Under the pieces are notes generated by a model. The model made no database searches. It had not been told where the DNA came from and worked only from the letters and a program-made list of their open reading frames with translations. Below are positions 3-7,270 of a DNA stretch of 7,270 nt, piece after piece. How positions within the stretch are numbered: position 1 is the stretch's first letter; the number at the start of each line of letters is the position of its first letter. Source of the DNA: an uncultured bacterium (GTDB lineage Bacteria > CALINM01); NCBI GenBank assembly GCA_938045315.1, contig CALINM010000011.1:1-7270 (forward strand), in the 5' to 3' direction. A program made the position numbers and the translations under genes.

Positions 3-398
3 CGTCAGAATGGTTTCGGCAATATATATAGCATAAATGAGGGTAATTATAATAATTGGGAAGATTGGACTAAGAATTATATAAATGATATTAAGAAAAA
101 AAAGGAAAAAAGCTTGAGATATGTGGGAACTCTTGTGGCAGATATACACAGAACATTGCTAAAAGGTGGTATATTTTTGTATCCCGGTGATATTAAAAAC
201 CCTTCAGGTAAATTAAGATTATTATATGAATGCTTTCCTATGGCATATCTTATTGAACAAGCAGGTGGATTAGCAACAGATGGATATAATAGAATTCTTG
301 AAAAAGTTCCTGTTGAGCTTCATGAACGTTCACCCCTGATTATAGGAAGTAAACAGGATGTGGAGGATGTATTAAAATTTATAAAAGGGGGTAATTAA
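3..398 (+). CDS. fbp: Fructose-1,6-bisphosphatase class I, C-terminal part (5' truncated by window)
   Basis: This gene encodes the cytosolic enzyme that hydrolyses fructose 1,6-bisphosphate to fructose 6-phosphate in gluconeogenesis. The frame is open from the first complete codon at position 3, so the true start is outside the window; 131 residues are visible out of the roughly 320-340 usual for the family. A TTG at 114 is internal and not a start. Class I signatures are seen in order: YSINEGN (about residues 9-15 of the visible part), RYVGTLVADIHR (39-50), GGIFLYP and GKLRLLYEC (69-77). By family knowledge, the Tyr residues of RYVG and FLYP and the Lys of GKLRLL contact the substrate, and the Glu of LYEC binds metal; all are present. 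The ending AGGLATDG...LHERSPLIIGS is also typical. The gene ends one base before the GTG of the next gene, so the two are probably co-transcribed. Identification is firm. Confidence 0.96.
   Translation, partial: RQNGFGNIYSINEGNYNNWEDWTKNYINDIKKKKEKSLRYVGTLVADIHRTLLKGGIFLYPGDIKNPSGKLRLLYECFPMAYLIEQAGGLATDGYNRILEKVPVELHERSPLIIGSKQDVEDVLKFIKGGN
385..392 (+). promoter_or_regulatory. Ribosome binding site for the GTG start at 400
   Basis: An AAGGGGGT stretch lies 7-8 bases before GTG 400, inside the last codons of fbp. It supports the GTG as the true start. Starting there gives a short basic N-terminus (MKN) followed by a hydrophobic stretch and a lipobox, as expected for a lipoprotein signal peptide. 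Confidence 0.7.
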
Positions 399-399
399 A

Positions 400-1191
400 G
401 TGAAAAACTTGATTTATGTATTGATTTTATTATTTTCAGGTTGTGCTATTACTCAGGATAGAAATCAGTCTGAATATTTTAAAGATTTTCAGACACAACT
501 TGTTACCCTTTCTCAAAGAGTAGATGTTCTGGAATCTAAAATACAAAGAGATATGGGTTTAAAAAGCAGTGTGTATGATAGAGTAGATAGGTTAGAGGAA
601 AAAATGAAGGATGCAGAAGAAACTATTGCTAAAATAAAGGCACATCCCTTATTTGATAGTCTTGATACAGTAAAATTACAACCTGCTCCCTCAAGTACAG
701 TAATTACCATAAAACCATCAGAAATAGAAAAGCTTGAAAAGTCAACTACAAAAACCTCTCAAGAAGAATTTAAACAGGTAGAAAAGGTAAGAGATGATAG
801 TATGGTAAAGGCTAAGATAGGAGAAGCAACGTTGATTAAGACAAATCCAGCAGCACTTTATAATCAGGGGTATGAAATGTATCTAAAAGGTAAATATGCA
901 CAGGCAATTACAATATTCAGGGAATTTCTACAAAACTTCCCAAATGATGCTTTGGCCGATAATGCACAATACTGGATTGGTGAATGCTACTATTCTCAAA
1001 AAATGTTTGATAGGGCAATAAGTGAATTCAAAAAAACCGAAAACTATCCTGATGGTAATAAAGTTCCTGATGCTTATTTAAAAATTTATTATTCCTATAA
1101 CGAACTGGGTAAAAAAGAGGAAGCAAATCAATGGAAAAAACTTCTTTTAGAGAAATTTGGAAATTCAGAAGCAGCGAAAAAAATAAAATAG
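400..1191 (+). CDS. CpoB/YbgF-like TPR lipoprotein (Tol-Pal-associated type)
   Basis: This is a predicted envelope lipoprotein of 263 aa. It has a short signal peptide (residues 1-14) ending in the lipobox FSGC with Cys15 as the lipidation site. The residue after Cys is Ala, not Asp, which favours the outer membrane by the E. coli rule. Residues about 26-80 show heptad-like spacing of Leu/Val/Ile (QLVTLSQRVDVLESKI, RVDRLEEKM), suggesting a coiled coil that could trimerise. A polar linker follows. Residues 149-263 hold about three tetratricopeptide repeats beginning NPAALYNQGYEMYLKGKY, closely like the C-terminal domain of YbgF/CpoB, which in E. coli coordinates PBP1B and Tol during septal wall synthesis. 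The canonical protein is periplasmic and sits next to pal; here no tol or pal gene is in view, so the partner is unknown. The start is GTG with a good upstream Shine-Dalgarno. The domain call is strong; functional equivalence to CpoB is inferred. Confidence 0.85.
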   Translation: MKNLIYVLILLFSGCAITQDRNQSEYFKDFQTQLVTLSQRVDVLESKIQRDMGLKSSVYDRVDRLEEKMKDAEETIAKIKAHPLFDSLDTVKLQPAPSSTVITIKPSEIEKLEKSTTKTSQEEFKQVEKVRDDSMVKAKIGEATLIKTNPAALYNQGYEMYLKGKYAQAITIFREFLQNFPNDALADNAQYWIGECYYSQKMFDRAISEFKKTENYPDGNKVPDAYLKIYYSYNELGKKEEANQWKKLLLEKFGNSEAAKKIK

Positions 1192-1201
1192 TATTCCCAG
1201 T

Positions 1202-1207
1202 AGGGGG
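1202..1207 (+). promoter_or_regulatory. Ribosome binding site deciding the start at 1212
   Basis: AGGGGG sits 4 bases before ATG 1212, in the 20-base gap after the CpoB-like gene. The alternative in-frame ATG at 1131 lies inside the upstream gene. Using it would put a charged 27-residue extension in front of the signal peptide, so 1212 is preferred. Confidence 0.7.
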
Positions 1208-1211
1208 AATT

Positions 1212-2237
1212 ATGAGAATAAAAAATTTTTTAATCTTTTTAGTGTCTGCATCAGTGTGCTTTTCTTTTTCTCCTTATGATGAACATGTGATTCAAAGGGG
1301 AGAAAATTTATGGAAAATTACAGAGAAGTATTTAAACGATCCCTTTAAATGGGTGGAGATCTGGAAAATAAACCCTGATGTTAAAGATCCCCATTGGATA
1401 TATCCAGGCAGAAAAATTAAAATACCATCAAAAATGGGCAAGAAAGAATCAGTGCAGGAAATATTACCTATAAAAGAAGAAAAGCCCATCGTTAAAGAGA
1501 TTGTTATCTGGGAAAAAGATGCTGCTATGGTAGATGTTGAAGGTGATAAAAAAATAAAAAAATATATTGTAAATATTGATCAGTTAAATAGATTAGATTA
1601 CTATACGAAAATGCCTCTCAAAAATAATTTTGTTTTACTGAGAACTGATGACAATGTGATTTTAGGTTCATCGGGGCGAAAGTATTTTATTGATGGTGGA
1701 AGTATTCATGGCATAGAAATGGGTAAAAGATTCAAAGTAGTTAAAAAACCAAGGATCTTAAAAGATAAAGAAACAGGTAATGAGTATGGCTATATATATC
1801 CAGTTGCAGGTATTATTGAGATTAGTGAGGTGTATCCTCAGATTTCTGCAGGTTATATAATTGAAAGTTTTATTGAGATTACTCAAGGTGACCTCCTTGC
1901 ACCTGTTGAAAAAGTGACCAATCCTGAAATAATAATTAAAAAGTCAAAAGTTTTTTTGGAAGGCAAGATTATAGATATAGCTGATAATCATATTTTTGTA
2001 CAGAATAGGGACTTTGTTTTTTTAGATAGAGGCAGTAAAGATGGGCTTGAAAAAGGGGATATTTTAAAAATAGAAAAATTTATTCCCCATGTTAAAGAGA
2101 ATTTAAAGGATGTGGGTCGAATGGTGGTCATAAATTCCTTCGATGATGTTTCAATCGCTTATGTCCTTGAGATAAGAGATGTTATAGAAATAGGTTCAAG
2201 ATTTTCAACCTATACTGATAATTTAGGGAAAAAATAA
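1212..2237 (+). CDS. Secreted LysM-domain protein with two C-terminal repeat modules
   Basis: This is a predicted periplasmic or cell-surface protein of 341 aa. Residues 1-20 form a signal peptide (MRIKN then a hydrophobic run). Cys16 lacks a good lipobox, so cleavage by ordinary signal peptidase is more likely. A LysM domain spans about 24-72 (HVIQRGENLWKITEKY...IYPGRKIKIP); this domain binds the N-acetylglucosamine chains of peptidoglycan. It is the variant found in Gram-negative LysM proteins, with WKINPD...WIYPG. A Lys/Glu-rich linker follows. Two similar modules come next, about 159-233 and 270-338. Each starts with a G-S-x-x-G-(I/L)-E-x-G turn and ends with a beta-rich segment like ISAGYIIESFIEITQGD or VSIAYVLEIRDVIEIGS. 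They resemble the small beta module seen in FlgT-C-like and related envelope proteins, but that link is only my inference. The gene lies between the CpoB-like and SPOR genes in an apparent operon. The LysM call is firm; the overall role (wall anchoring or assembly) is inferred. Confidence 0.88.
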   Translation: MRIKNFLIFLVSASVCFSFSPYDEHVIQRGENLWKITEKYLNDPFKWVEIWKINPDVKDPHWIYPGRKIKIPSKMGKKESVQEILPIKEEKPIVKEIVIWEKDAAMVDVEGDKKIKKYIVNIDQLNRLDYYTKMPLKNNFVLLRTDDNVILGSSGRKYFIDGGSIHGIEMGKRFKVVKKPRILKDKETGNEYGYIYPVAGIIEISEVYPQISAGYIIESFIEITQGDLLAPVEKVTNPEIIIKKSKVFLEGKIIDIADNHIFVQNRDFVFLDRGSKDGLEKGDILKIEKFIPHVKENLKDVGRMVVINSFDDVSIAYVLEIRDVIEIGSRFSTYTDNLGKK

Positions 2238-2251
2238 AGAGAGGTTTTGAT

Positions 2252-2821
2252 ATGAAAAAGCCAATTTTAATAGCCATTTTATCATCCATTTTGATTTTAG
2301 TTGGTAGCTATTATTATTTTTATATTTTGAATCCCCTGGTTGAAGAGCCTAAATTGCCCAAAAAGCAGAGAATTATAATTCAGAAACCTGTTACCAGTAT
2401 ACAATCCAAAGTGGTAGTTAAGGCTGAATTAAAAACAGATAAGAAAAAAGAGGAAACTAAATCCAGAGAACAGAAAGAGGGTGATCTGAAGCATAGTGAA
2501 AAAACTAAAGAAAAGATAAAACAAAGGGAGCAAAAAGAAATAAAACAAGATGAAAAGGTGAAAAAGGAAGTAGTTTCAAAACCCAAAAAACAACCCAGGT
2601 TTTATAGTTTAATATATGTAGCATCAAGTAGGAGAGAAGCAGAAAAGATAAAAGATGATGTTTATGGCAAAGGCTATCATACAGCAAAAGCAGGTAAGCA
2701 TGGTAAAAACGATGCTGTTATTATTTCACCTTTTACAGATAAATGGGAGGCTGAATATGTTTTAAAGCATCTTATAGAGGATACAGGTATAAAAAGCTTT
2801 AAAATTGTTGCTGTTTATTGA
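2252..2821 (+). CDS. Membrane-anchored SPOR-like domain protein
   Basis: This is a 189-aa predicted inner-membrane protein of FtsN-like layout. It has a short cytosolic N-terminus (MKKP), one membrane helix at about residues 5-25, a long low-complexity periplasmic linker (about 30-114) dominated by Lys, Glu and Gln, and a C-terminal domain at 115-189. The C-terminal domain matches the SPOR pattern: a first strand (FYSLIYVASS), a helix beginning REAEKIKDDVYGKGY, a strand ending in VIISPF (the usual V-G-P-F position), a second helix starting WEAEYVLKHL, and a last strand KIVAV. SPOR domains bind denuded glycan strands at the septum. The usual Q-V-G-S-F start is degenerate here (LIYVASS). ATG 2252 has an AGAGAGG site 7 bases upstream. 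The gene ends with tandem in-frame stops, TGA then TAA. The domain call rests on pattern, without a profile search; a division or wall-remodelling role is inferred. Confidence 0.8.
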   Translation: MKKPILIAILSSILILVGSYYYFYILNPLVEEPKLPKKQRIIIQKPVTSIQSKVVVKAELKTDKKKEETKSREQKEGDLKHSEKTKEKIKQREQKEIKQDEKVKKEVVSKPKKQPRFYSLIYVASSRREAEKIKDDVYGKGYHTAKAGKHGKNDAVIISPFTDKWEAEYVLKHLIEDTGIKSFKIVAVY

Positions 2822-2840
2822 TAAAAATTTGCTTCTAATA

Positions 2841-2848
2841 AGAGGTGG
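2841..2848 (+). promoter_or_regulatory. Ribosome binding site for the actin-like gene
   Basis: AGAGGTGG ends 3 bases before ATG 2852. It lies in the largest intergenic gap of the window (30 bases, 2822-2851), which shows neither a convincing promoter nor a terminator hairpin. The downstream gene is therefore probably read through from the envelope genes. Confidence 0.6.
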
Positions 2849-2851
2849 AAA

Positions 2852-3871
2852 ATGACAATAATTGGAATAGACATTGGTTTTGGTTATACAAAAGCTACTG
2901 ATGGGGTAAAAGATATTGTGTTTAAATCTATTCTTGGAGAAGCTGCGGAAATTCAATTTCAAGATGAATTGTTCCCTAAAAAAAAACAGGAAATGTTTCA
3001 TATAAGAATAGATGGTAAAGACTTTTTTGCAGGTGATCTGGCAGAGAGGCAATCTAATGTTAGATTGTTTACCCTTGATCAGAGTCAGTTTATTGCCCAA
3101 TTCGCACGAGTTCTTGCACTTGTTGCTCTCGGGAATCTTGTCAATAATTATGATATAATTAATTTGGTAACAGGACTTCCAGTGGGATATTATAAACAAT
3201 ATAAAGAAACTCTTGCTAATAGCCTTTTGGGGGAGCATAAGTATTCTTTTGTAAAAAATAATGGTGATACTTTAGAGAAAATTTTTACAGTAAATAAAAT
3301 TCGCATTATACCTCAACCATATGGTAGTTTATTAAATCTTTTTCTTGATGATGATGGCAAGCCCAGAAACAGTGATCTCATAAAGCAAAAAATTGGAATT
3401 ATAGATATTGGTTTTAGAACTACTGACTATGTGGTTTCTGATAAAATGCAGTATTCTGAGCGGGGAAGTAAAACAACTGATAATGGTATAGCTAAAGCAT
3501 TTAGTGTAGTTGCCAATAAACTTAGAGAGAAAAGCTCTGTTAATATCGAACTTTTTAAACTTTATGAGGCACTTGTAAAGGGTAGTATCAAAATAAGAGG
3601 TAAAGAATATGATTTAACTTCCATCAAAGAGCAAGTTTATCAGCAACTTTCTAATCAGATAGTTGCAGATGCTGAAAGATTTTGGGTAGATGATTGGGAT
3701 ATTGATTTTGTAATAATAAGTGGTGGAGGTGGTGTTTTATTGGACAAATATATAACTCCACTTATACCTAATTCAAAAACAGCATTTTCTCCTGGTATGG
3801 ACGGTAGGTTTTTTAATGTGAAAGGTTATTTAAAATATGGTAAAAGTGTTTGGTTTGAATCAAAGGAATGA
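2852..3871 (+). CDS. ParM/StbA-family actin-like ATPase
   Basis: This is a predicted cytosolic actin-fold ATPase of 339 aa, close to the usual 320-350 of ParM-like and archaeal Ta0583-like proteins. Actin-superfamily motifs appear in order. Phosphate 1 is DIGFGYTK (residues 7-14). An ALP-type N-terminal domain includes NLVTGLPVGYY. Phosphate 2 is DIGFRTTD (185-192, after GII). The adenosine motif is VIISGGGGVLL (287-297). By family knowledge such proteins polymerise into ATP-dependent filaments that segregate plasmids (ParM, AlfA, Alp7A) or have unassigned chromosomal roles. No ParR-like DNA-binding gene, centromere-like repeat array or other plasmid gene is visible nearby, which argues against a standard partition operon. 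It follows the SPOR gene and overlaps the permease by four bases (ATGA), so translation of the two is probably coupled. Family assignment is strong; the function here is unknown. Confidence 0.88.
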   Translation: MTIIGIDIGFGYTKATDGVKDIVFKSILGEAAEIQFQDELFPKKKQEMFHIRIDGKDFFAGDLAERQSNVRLFTLDQSQFIAQFARVLALVALGNLVNNYDIINLVTGLPVGYYKQYKETLANSLLGEHKYSFVKNNGDTLEKIFTVNKIRIIPQPYGSLLNLFLDDDGKPRNSDLIKQKIGIIDIGFRTTDYVVSDKMQYSERGSKTTDNGIAKAFSVVANKLREKSSVNIELFKLYEALVKGSIKIRGKEYDLTSIKEQVYQQLSNQIVADAERFWVDDWDIDFVIISGGGGVLLDKYITPLIPNSKTAFSPGMDGRFFNVKGYLKYGKSVWFESKE

Positions 3872-5196
3872 AGAATAATTTTTTTAGTATTTTATCTATC
3901 GATAAAAAAAATTTAAACTTAAAGACTGAAATTGAAGGTGGTTTAGCAACCTTCTTTACAATGTGTTATATTATTTTTGTACAGCCTGTTGTACTTTCCA
4001 GACTTAATATGGATATAGGTGCGGTCATGATAGCTACATGTATTTCCAGTGCTATTGCATGTTTTGCTATGGGAATCCTTGCCAATTACCCTGTTGCTTT
4101 AGCCCCAGGTATGGGGCATAACTTTCTTTTTGTATCAATTGCTACTGCATATGGGCTTTCTTTTCAACAGGCTTTGGGAATTGTTTTTATATCAGGTATG
4201 TTATTTGTGGTTCTTTCATTTATACCTTTTAGGGAAAAAATACTTAATGAGATACCGATGGGTATAAAACACGGAATATCAGTTGGTATAGGTTTTTTGA
4301 TTACCCTTATAGGATTGGAATGGTCTGGAATTGTGGTCGGGGCACCTGGAACTTATATTGGCCTTGGTAAGTTGAATAGTAATTATGTTTTAATTAGTCT
4401 AATAGGGTTTATTGTTATAATATTTTTGACATTGAAAAACAAAAAGTCGGCAATTATTTGGGGTATACTTACTTCTACTTTTTTATCTCTTTTATTAGGC
4501 TTTAGTAAATTTTCTGGTGTTGTTGATTACCCACCTTCTTTATATCCTACTTTTTGGAAATTAGAAATTAATAAAGACTTTTTTAGTTTGTCTTTTTTAA
4601 ATGTAATTTTCACCTTTCTTTTTCTCGATGTTTTTGATACAGTTGGTACCCTTGTTGGTGTAGGTGAACAGGGTAAATTTCTTGTAAATGGTAAACTACC
4701 GAGGGCAAAACAGGCTTTTTTAGCTGATGCAATTGGAACTGTTGCAGGTAGTATATTTGGGACTTCTACAGTTACAAGTTATATAGAGAGTGCATCCGGT
4801 ATTAGTGTGGGTGCAAAAACTGGTATAGCGAGTATTGTGACGGGTATATTATTTCTTTTATCAATCTTCTTTTATCCTTTAGTTCGCACAGTTGGTTCTG
4901 CATATGTTACAGAAAATGGACTTGTCTTATATCCTACAATTGCACCTGCATTAATTTTTGTTGGATTTCTAATGATTTCAAATATTAAGAAGATAGATTT
5001 CGCTAATTATGAAGAAAGCATTCCTGCATTCTTAGCTGTGGTTTTAATACCATTAGGTTTTAGTATATCTGATGGTATCGCGATTAGTTTTATAACCTTT
5101 TGTATCATAAAAATATTGCTATTTAAATTTAAGGATATAAGTTTTGTAGTATACATATTAACTTTGATATTTTTATTTCGATATATATTTATCTAA
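3868..5196 (+). CDS. AzgA-type (NCS2) purine permease, probable hypoxanthine/guanine/adenine transporter
   Basis: This is a polytopic inner-membrane proton symporter of 442 aa, the normal size for the AzgA/PbuG branch of nucleobase-cation symporters. Characteristic segments are TEIEGGLATFFTMCYIIFVQP (20-40), LAPGMGHNFLF (about 73-83), FLDVFDTVGTLVGVG (with D254, D257 and T258), and ADAIGTVAGSIFGTSTVTSYIES (ending 298-308); hydrophobic spans run throughout. These segments build the substrate site in the UraA-like fold. The GMGHN motif differs from the commoner GMGLN, so which purine is carried cannot be told. The start codon overlaps the stop of the actin-like gene (ATGA). The AAAGG site is only one or two bases from the ATG, so initiation probably depends on ribosomes terminating just upstream. 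The usual family N-terminus (short, then TEI-x-x-GL-T-F) agrees with this start. No purine riboswitch is seen upstream. Confidence 0.92.
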   Translation: MKNNFFSILSIDKKNLNLKTEIEGGLATFFTMCYIIFVQPVVLSRLNMDIGAVMIATCISSAIACFAMGILANYPVALAPGMGHNFLFVSIATAYGLSFQQALGIVFISGMLFVVLSFIPFREKILNEIPMGIKHGISVGIGFLITLIGLEWSGIVVGAPGTYIGLGKLNSNYVLISLIGFIVIIFLTLKNKKSAIIWGILTSTFLSLLLGFSKFSGVVDYPPSLYPTFWKLEINKDFFSLSFLNVIFTFLFLDVFDTVGTLVGVGEQGKFLVNGKLPRAKQAFLADAIGTVAGSIFGTSTVTSYIESASGISVGAKTGIASIVTGILFLLSIFFYPLVRTVGSAYVTENGLVLYPTIAPALIFVGFLMISNIKKIDFANYEESIPAFLAVVLIPLGFSISDGIAISFITFCIIKILLFKFKDISFVVYILTLIFLFRYIFI

Positions 5197-6557
5197 TGAA
5201 AAAGTCAACTATATCCTATCTTGAAAGAACATTTGGTTCTAAAAAGCTTTTAACTTTGAATATACCTGAGAAGTTTAGTTACGATGAATCAACAATTTAC
5301 TACTCCCATCCTGAAGCAGTTTTTTTGCCAGATACAGAAGAAGAAATTAAAGAATTTTTAAAAATAGCGAAGGAGAGAAAAGTAAAAGTAGTGCCAAGAG
5401 GTGGTGGAACAGGTGTATGTGGTGGGGCTGTTGCAATTTTTGGAGGGATAGTGTTATCTACAGAGAGGTTGAATAAAATAATTGATTTTGACGAGTTAAA
5501 TCAATGTGTAGAAGTAGAAGCAGGCGTCGTAAATGGAGATTTAAAAAAATTTCTGGAAGAAAGAGGGTATTATTATCCACCAGATCCCCAGAGCTATGAA
5601 ACGTCGTTTATAGGAGGGAACATAGCTACAAATGCAGGTGGGCCAAGAGCAGTAAAATATGGGACAACAAAAGACTACGTGATGGGCTTGAGTATTGTTA
5701 CTGGTGAAGGTAGAATTGTAAAGACGGGTGGTAAGGTCTACAAATTTTCTTCTGGTTATAATCTTAATGAACTTATATGTGGTTCAGAAGGTACCTTAGG
5801 TATTATAACAAGAGCAATTTTAAAATTTCTTCCATTACCAATGGAACGTATTGTTTTTTTGCTGCCCTTTTTAAATTTAGAGGATGCTTTAAATTTTGTT
5901 CTCCAGGTACAAAAAGCAAATCTACCCTTCTCGGCTTTTGAATTTATTGATGATACAGCTATCTATTATGTAGAAAGATTTTTAAGGAGGAGTTTACCCT
6001 ACTCTGAAAGAGCTAAATGTTACCTTTTTACCGAATTAGAATGGCAAAATAATGATAACTATGTTGATCTTGTTGAAAAAATTGCGAACAAGAATAATGT
6101 TCTTAATATTTTTGTTGCTTCAGACAGAATAAATGAAGAAAAATTGTGGGAAGCGAGAAAAAAAATCTCATATGCATTCAAAGAGTTTTCTAAAAGAGTT
6201 TATAAGGCTGATGTGGTTGTACCAAGGGGAAAAATATCTCAATTTGTAAAAAAAATCAAGGGAATAAGCACTGATAAAATGCCAGTGGCATGCTTCGGGC
6301 ATGTAGGTGATGGTAATGTACATGTTAATATTCTGGAACTAAAAAATACCGATGTTTGTGATGTAAAAAATGTGCTTAATTCAATTATGAAGATAGTCAA
6401 AAATTTAGGTGGATTTCCATCTGGTGAGCATGGAATAGGAGTTGCAAAAAAAGAGTTTTTAAAAAATTTCTTTTCCCGTTATCATATAGATAAGTGGAGA
6501 AAAATTAAAAAGGTTTTTGATCCCTATAATATTTTAAATCCTGGAAAAATTTTTTAG
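5196..6557 (+). CDS. GlcD-type FAD-linked 2-hydroxyacid (glycolate/D-lactate) dehydrogenase
   Basis: This is a flavoprotein of the VAO/PCMH fold, 453 aa, the usual length for GlcD or bacterial D-lactate dehydrogenase. Residues about 38-176 form the FAD-binding domain, with PRGGGTG (67-73), GGNIATNAGGP (140-150) and KYGTTKDYV. NELICGSEGTLGIIT closes this part. The C-terminal FAD-oxidase domain (about 213-452) carries FGHVGDGNVHVNI, with H369 and H376, and SGEHGIG, with E411 and H412; these are the family's substrate and metal-site residues. The protein oxidises a 2-hydroxyacid such as glycolate or D-lactate and passes electrons to a partner. No fused Fe-S domain and no glcE or glcF gene are in view, so the acceptor is unknown and substrate specificity is open. 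Its ATG shares one base with the stop of the permease (TAATG), implying coupled translation. No Shine-Dalgarno of its own is obvious. Confidence 0.92.
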   Translation: MKKSTISYLERTFGSKKLLTLNIPEKFSYDESTIYYSHPEAVFLPDTEEEIKEFLKIAKERKVKVVPRGGGTGVCGGAVAIFGGIVLSTERLNKIIDFDELNQCVEVEAGVVNGDLKKFLEERGYYYPPDPQSYETSFIGGNIATNAGGPRAVKYGTTKDYVMGLSIVTGEGRIVKTGGKVYKFSSGYNLNELICGSEGTLGIITRAILKFLPLPMERIVFLLPFLNLEDALNFVLQVQKANLPFSAFEFIDDTAIYYVERFLRRSLPYSERAKCYLFTELEWQNNDNYVDLVEKIANKNNVLNIFVASDRINEEKLWEARKKISYAFKEFSKRVYKADVVVPRGKISQFVKKIKGISTDKMPVACFGHVGDGNVHVNILELKNTDVCDVKNVLNSIMKIVKNLGGFPSGEHGIGVAKKEFLKNFFSRYHIDKWRKIKKVFDPYNILNPGKIF

Positions 6558-6567: not shown

Positions 6568-6759
6568 ATGGAATGTATCTATGAAAAGAACTTAAAGGAA
6601 TGTACATGTACTTACACTGCATGCGAAAAAAGAGGAAAATGTTGTTTATGTGTTTCTTATCACAGGAAAAGAAATGAGATACCTGGTTGTTTCTTCTCAC
6701 CACAGGCTGAAAAAACATATGATAGGAGCATAAAGAACTTTATAGCGACAAATAGATGA
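6568..6759 (+). CDS. Small cysteine-rich protein, DUF6485-type
   Basis: This 63-residue protein has no signal peptide or membrane span, so it is likely cytosolic. It has eight cysteines (3, 12, 14, 19, 25, 26, 28, 41) plus His32, arranged as C-x8-C-x-C-x4-C-x5-CC-x-C, then YHRK, then PGCFF. It ends with AEKTYDRSIKNFI. This layout matches my memory of the DUF6485 family, small proteins frequent in anaerobic bacteria and of unknown function. The cysteine density suggests a zinc or iron-sulfur site; that is inference and no metal is shown. The gene follows the GlcD-type gene by 10 bases, with an excellent Shine-Dalgarno, and overlaps the next gene by four bases (ATGA). Coding status is well supported by the RBS, the coupling and the conserved-looking motif pattern. 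Confidence 0.85.
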   Translation: MECIYEKNLKECTCTYTACEKRGKCCLCVSYHRKRNEIPGCFFSPQAEKTYDRSIKNFIATNR

Positions 6760-7148
6760 AAAAAATTGCAGTATTAATAATATTTATCTTACTCTCAGGG
6801 TGTTTTATTGTATTCACTCATGAGAGTAGAGATCCATCTATTATAACTGTGCATCTTTTACCGCCAAAAGTCTCGGAGGGGCTTAAGCCCTCAAAAGCTA
6901 TAAATGCTTATATTGGTGTTGTACCTTTTGAATTTGATTTAAAATTTTCTGAGGATAAGCAACCTTATTATTTCGATTATTCATATCTTCCAAAAGAGTT
7001 TTATCAAAATGTTCTGGTTTTGTTAGAAAATGGTATTTTTAATAAAGTAATTGAACAGGATGTTAATGAAAATATAAAGAACCCTGAACAATTAATAAAG
7101 AAAATAACTGAAAATAAGCTTGATACAGGATTATTTATAAAAATATAA
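6756..7148 (+). CDS. Predicted lipoprotein, apparently cut short by a frameshift
   Basis: This frame encodes 130 aa. A signal peptide (residues 1-15, MKK plus a hydrophobic run) ends in a perfect lipobox LSGC, with Cys16 as the lipid anchor. The next residue is Phe, consistent with outer-membrane sorting. The mature part is not a family I can name. The segment AYIGVVPFEFDL, followed by a helix and LLENGIFNKVIEQ, recalls the TolB-N/LpoB/CsgG-like 'V-V-P-F ... L...G.F..V' layout of small envelope lipoproteins; this is a weak inference. The frame ends at TAA 7146-7148, but clearly coding sequence continues in the neighbouring frame from 7141 to the window end. The intact protein is therefore probably longer and this version is frameshifted. 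The start is an ATGA overlap with the DUF6485-type gene. Confidence 0.75.
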   Translation: MKKIAVLIIFILLSGCFIVFTHESRDPSIITVHLLPPKVSEGLKPSKAINAYIGVVPFEFDLKFSEDKQPYYFDYSYLPKEFYQNVLVLLENGIFNKVIEQDVNENIKNPEQLIKKITENKLDTGLFIKI

Positions 7149-7270
7149 TGATTTTAAGATTGCGAAAAAATCTAATGGTTGGTTTGGTAACATAAAATAT
7201 AGAATTATGATAGTAACTTATGATGGTAATGTATTAAAAGACGAAGAGAAATTTTTTACCCTTGAGAAAG
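7141..7270 (+). pseudogene. Out-of-frame continuation of the lipoprotein gene, open to window end
   Basis: Read from 7141, this stretch has no stop for 43 codons. It gives a balanced, protein-like sequence beginning KYNDFKIAKKSNGWFGNIKY and continuing RIMIVTYDGNVLKDEEKFF. The same frame has a stop at 7138-7140 just upstream. Its first ATG (7207) lacks a ribosome binding site and falls mid-strand, so it is not an independent gene start. Removing one A from the A5 run at 7139-7143 would join LDTGLFIK directly to YNDFKIAKK in one frame. This is best read as the 3' half of the same gene after a one-base insertion, whether natural, a sequencing error, or bypassed by slippage. The gene's end lies outside the window. 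Confidence 0.65.

Follow-up and report, generated by a model that had tools for sequence, protein, structure and literature searches.

In filamentous cyanobacteria, rod shape depends on FcmB, a chromosomal actin derived from ParM (PMC12645912). Conserved ParMs encoded on the chromosome (cParMs) have been described in Desulfitobacterium and Clostridium (PMC12270681; PDB 8x1i). The window analysed here, an entire 7270-nt contig of a draft genome, encodes an actin-like protein of 339 aa (ALP; positions 2852..3871, + strand) that adds a new lineage to the chromosomal actins of the ParM type. By sequence, ALP is of the ParM type: it matched ALP_N at 8.5e-36 and MreB-like_C at 1.1e-17, and the nearest solved proteins were pCBH ParM (2e-36), Dh-cParM1 and CorM. 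Intact copies of the ATP-site motifs DxGxGxTK, D[IV]GFxTTD and GGGG were present in each of the 11 clade sequences that were examined. As for other actins of the host family (f1), its genomes contained a separate MreB match of 500 bits, ALP was not among the MreB_Mbl matches, and mreBCD-mrdA-rodA was intact in one genome, G001. The other actin-superfamily matches fitted FtsA, DnaK and PilM, as named by size and score and not by profiles of their own. We consider the chances about even that ALP became fixed on the chromosome as a ParM-type actin without any ParR/parC and took on a host role, most likely in envelope growth or division. According to this reading, an actin of the plasmid or phage type would have settled on the chromosome and parted from ParR/parC. 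It would form nucleotide-dependent cytosolic filaments and would serve the host beside MreB and FtsA.

All coding in the window lies on the + strand and is tightly packed. The 3' part of a class 1 fructose-1,6-bisphosphatase (FBPase) gene (3..398; PF18913 3.5e-51) ends 1 nt upstream of a gene with a GTG start for a YbgF/CpoB-type TPR outer-membrane lipoprotein with a lipobox Cys (400..1191). Next come a periplasmic LysM protein whose C-terminal region is weakly FlgT_C-like (1212..2237; LysM 1e-06, FlgT_C 0.001), a single-pass inner-membrane SPOR protein (2252..2821) and ALP. Downstream of ALP lie an NCS2-type xanthine/uracil permease (3868..5196; PF00860 5e-40), the start of which is 4 nt inside the ALP stop, a GlcD-like FAD-linked oxidase (5196..6557; TIGR00387 3e-113), a cysteine-rich DUF6485 protein of 63 aa (6568..6759; PF20095 3.1e-09) and a lipoprotein reading frame (6756..7148). 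The intergenic gaps, from FBPase to the lipoprotein frame, are 1, 20, 14, 30, -4, -1, 10 and -4 nt. The DUF6485 protein is 94% identical between the genome of the window (G000) and G001. The lipoprotein frame is shortened by a frameshift and ends early relative to its 377-aa orthologue (L004:9248-10381), with homology resuming in another frame after about 7136-7150; this disruption near the contig end is either a real frameshift or a sequencing error.

The initial annotation had read positions 400-3871 as three consecutive envelope genes followed by an actin gene, together forming one module. All four genes proved real and correctly placed, their domain calls held (YbgF, LysM and ALP_N by profile, SPOR by predicted fold), and they do share an operon. 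This operon, however, comprises at least nine genes and runs without a break into metabolic genes on both sides, so that no gap marks the edges of the proposed module, to which FBPase, purine permease and glcD are directly joined. The 4-nt overlap of ALP and permease was present in 3/3 genomes of the family and is tighter than the SPOR-ALP junction. In G000 (30 nt) and G002 (113 nt), the SPOR-ALP gap was the largest within the row, while in G001 it measured 22 nt vs 24 nt before LysM. The gap-free joining of FBPase, purine permease, glcD and DUF6485 with wall genes favours a bystander operon, i.e. unrelated housekeeping genes bundled together, with the partners of ALP encoded elsewhere or ALP serving a process unrelated to the wall. 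We regard this explanation as possible but doubtful.

Among the envelope genes, the TPR protein scores above the YbgF threshold with its C-terminal domain (TIGR02795, 93.6 bits vs 90.1), in which it resembles YbgF/CpoB of the Tol-Pal system, and its lipobox cysteine is conserved in the three genomes. However, the gene lies outside the tol-pal locus. A separate ybgF follows pal in a tolA-tolB-pal-ybgF locus elsewhere in each f1 genome, which makes the gene in the window paralogous to the positional YbgF. The LysM profile matched in 194 of 386 genomes, with many of the matches covering the LysM domain only. A similar TPR gene was located directly 5' of the LysM homologue in no fewer than three other families (G180, G016 and G187), which makes TPR-LysM a recurrent pair; at these loci, the window profiles picked up neither SPOR nor ALP homologues. 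The predicted model of the LysM protein (pLDDT 35) was too poor for use. The SPOR protein scored 15.2 bits against Pfam, below the cut-off of 21, and its orthologues match the SPOR family in 3/3 genomes. Its SPOR segment was modelled with pLDDT 93 as beta-alpha-beta-beta-alpha-beta. A fold search with this model gave the FtsN SPOR domain as the top PDB match and also listed the SPOR domains of CwlC and RlpA (TM 0.61-0.71), by which the SPOR fold of the predicted structure is confirmed. Each f1 genome has a further two SPOR genes that score above the cut-off.

The phylum sample consisted of three genomes (G000, G001 and G002), all of family f1 and belonging to two genera. The TPR-LysM-SPOR-ALP order recurred in the other two MAGs, of which one shares the genus of G000 and one does not, as part of a longer FBPase-TPR-LysM-SPOR-ALP-permease-glcD order kept in all three. 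An assembly artefact can be ruled out, the order being common to three separate MAGs. The FBPase gene is complete in L004 and L005, and since the genes 5' of it differ between G001 and G002, the operon starts at FBPase. Other operons are equally collinear among the three genomes, for example the tilS-ftsH-P611 locus, so the conserved order is weak evidence for a single machine, and its unexceptional nature is also in keeping with a bystander operon. In the scan of genome contigs, that of G001 was the sole match, and a scan of viral contigs found no relatives.

The four genes evolve at different rates. Identities to the two other f1 genomes were 92/74% for ALP, 81/52% for TPR, 72/41% for LysM and 62/38% for SPOR, making ALP the most conserved and SPOR the fastest-evolving of the four. 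Because dS was saturated for most genes, dN was used for gene comparison. Between G000 and G001, it amounted to 0.049 for ALP, 0.271 for SPOR, 0.172 for LysM, 0.109 for TPR, 0.099 for the permease and 0.142 for GlcD; among the compared genes, only the 63-aa DUF6485 gene had a lower value than ALP.

These results bear on the chain across the envelope envisaged by the initial annotation, in which an ALP filament would be bound to SPOR, SPOR to LysM and LysM to the TPR lipoprotein, the N-terminal cytosolic tail of SPOR being the actin contact. The order kept in three genomes and the domains, which suit septum or wall binding, speak for such a chain. Yet the SPOR protein begins with MKKP and passes directly into its membrane segment (residues ~5-26), followed by a Lys/Glu-rich linker and the SPOR domain (~117-189); a tail of ~4 residues leaves almost nothing for a filament to bind. 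The contrast between the fastest SPOR and the slowest ALP, the paralogy of the TPR protein to the YbgF of tol-pal, and the absence of TPR-LysM-SPOR-ALP linkage outside one family likewise stand against it. What joins the four proteins is their membership of the same operon, and we judge the chain improbable and the four-gene module as drawn unlikely. TPR, LysM and SPOR are most likely ordinary peptidoglycan-interacting envelope proteins that are expressed together with ALP and possibly are active in the same process.

Outside f1, only two other members of the ALP clade were found in the 386 genomes, both in family f109; the sixth match of this search, in G311, groups with plasmid ParM. Within the small phylum of f109, 9 of 12 genomes possessed the clade. 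The f1 and f109 ALPs form one clade (support 99/97). Its sister group consists of phage actins of the SPO1 type (97/93), and the plasmid ParMs fall outside. As the complete f109 genome G246 is a single 2.8-Mb contig, ALP is chromosomal there as well. The usual arrangement there, present in seven genomes, is P611-ALP-CHB930, followed in several genomes with sufficient sequence by FHA, HD-GYP, TPR, a ~110-aa protein and an M23 peptidase. Pfam searches in two genomes gave Csd3_N2 plus M23 for the M23 peptidase and TPR for the TPR protein. ALP in f109 is accompanied by an inner-membrane-anchored periplasmic repeat protein with a single TM, a TPR lipoprotein and a Csd3-like M23 peptidase. The repeat protein (CHB930; 930 aa, single-pass; L050:5620-8409) carries CHB_HEX_C_1/Fn3-associated repeats and Reg_prop motifs, and its paralogues occur nearby in several f109 genomes.

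The neighbours of ALP are not homologous between the two phyla, and in G246 the LysM homologue is located 328 kb from ALP. The linkage of the four genes holds in 3/3 genomes within f1 and is lost outside this family; scattering of the genes in relatives is what the initial annotation had named as evidence against its module. Such a complete change of neighbours is what a bystander operon might be expected to show. Against it, envelope proteins recur beside the ALP clade in both phyla, and the ParM-derived FcmB acts on cell shape (PMC12645912). The presence of inner-membrane, TPR and wall-linked neighbours in both phyla is suggestive. Because in each phylum ALP shares its neighbourhood with genes for periplasmic proteins anchored in the inner membrane, for TPR proteins and for wall-associated proteins, and by analogy with FcmB (PMC12645912), we infer a role in envelope growth or division. 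ALP has most likely been domesticated and serves the cell biology of its host, probably in the growth of the envelope. A more specific version can be put forward tentatively, namely that domestication of a plasmid- or phage-type actin also took place outside the cyanobacteria and that, after the loss of ParR, this actin turned into a cytoskeleton of the envelope in two phyla. An adaptor would couple it to periplasmic wall-binding proteins, which would be SPOR, LysM and TPR in the phylum of f1 and the Fn3/CHB_HEX repeat protein and the Csd3-like endopeptidase in that of f109. No membrane-binding element is visible in ALP, and for attachment to the membrane it would depend on an additional adaptor. 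In G110, ALP has been reduced to a short remnant (L105:8571-8671) between P611 and CHB930 while these neighbours persist, indicating that ALP can be dispensable; G386, of the same genus, has a whole ALP.

P611, the gene preceding ALP in f109, encodes a ~600-aa soluble protein without a Pfam family (L050:9632-11467, L082:8595-10346) and has orthologues in 3/3 f1 genomes. It was considered as an ALP-specific partner and rejected. P611 occurred in 12 of the 386 genomes, including every ALP-clade genome of the sample (chance estimate for two families, 6e-4). However, 86 of the 375 genomes sampled from another phylum also had it, and no ALP of the f1/f109 clade was found in that sample (best match 3.1e-48). 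Given its presence where the ALP clade was not found, co-occurrence lends little support to a partnership, which is further weakened by the position of the f1 P611 gene beside tilS-ftsH, away from ALP. In G126 (L106:9102-13581), P611 lies head to head with an SLT/TPR lytic transglycosylase gene, which is followed by a frame that appears ZapA-like by eye.

As for the partners of a segregation actin, the gene neighbourhoods of f1 and f109 contained no ParR-like gene adjoining ALP; the next gene is the permease in f1 and the 930-aa membrane protein in f109. Among the relatives examined, those of plasmids and phages and most of the divergent genomic ones have a small gene (~75-150 aa) next to the actin. 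No parC repeat array was found near ALP, with just weak short two-copy repeats at 2200-3000. ALP might still move DNA, be it a plasmid or the chromosome, with ParR encoded elsewhere: the closest solved relatives are plasmid ParMs, pCBH ParM foremost, and fixation on chromosomes is known for cParMs accompanied by ParR (PMC12270681). Given the lack of an adjoining ParR-like gene, the retention of the small gene by plasmid and phage relatives and the weakness of the repeats, we consider a segregation role unlikely, though less so than the filament-SPOR-LysM-TPR chain.

If ALP acts on the envelope, the recruitment of plasmid or phage actins for cell shape would be a repeated event and not a cyanobacterial peculiarity, and in this instance the partner derived from ParR, which accompanies the known cases, would be lacking. 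How a segregation actin is converted into a host cytoskeleton could then be tested on purified proteins. The case for a machine of four genes is weak.

A described module of TPR, LysM, SPOR and actin was not found in the literature. For the actin itself, several known systems offer a comparison. ALP differs from MreB in lying outside the MreB_Mbl matches, a separate MreB being encoded, together with mreCD in G001. It shares with ParMRC the ParM type of its actin, whereas the adjacent ParR gene and the parC array are missing. The sister proteins, SPO1 Bacillus phage gp27.9 and its Alicyclobacillus phage relative, are 30-32% identical to ALP but are phage-borne, and their actin gene is followed by a small gene overlapping it. 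Like ALP, the cParMs are ParM-type actins fixed on the chromosome and strongly conserved in their lineage (PMC12270681), yet they have ParR downstream. CorM (PDB 9rmi) is an actin-like protein detectable by sequence (E 4.1e-19), although its similarity to ALP is just moderate and its partner and function are not comparable here. With FcmB/FcmC, ALP has in common that it is ParM-derived, chromosomal, conserved in its lineage and present alongside MreB (PMC12645912). It differs in scoring 71.1 bits against the NCBIfam FcmB cut-off of 300, and in having the overlapping permease directly downstream in place of an FcmC-like gene. ALP is thus most likely comparable to FcmB and CorM while not being a member of either.
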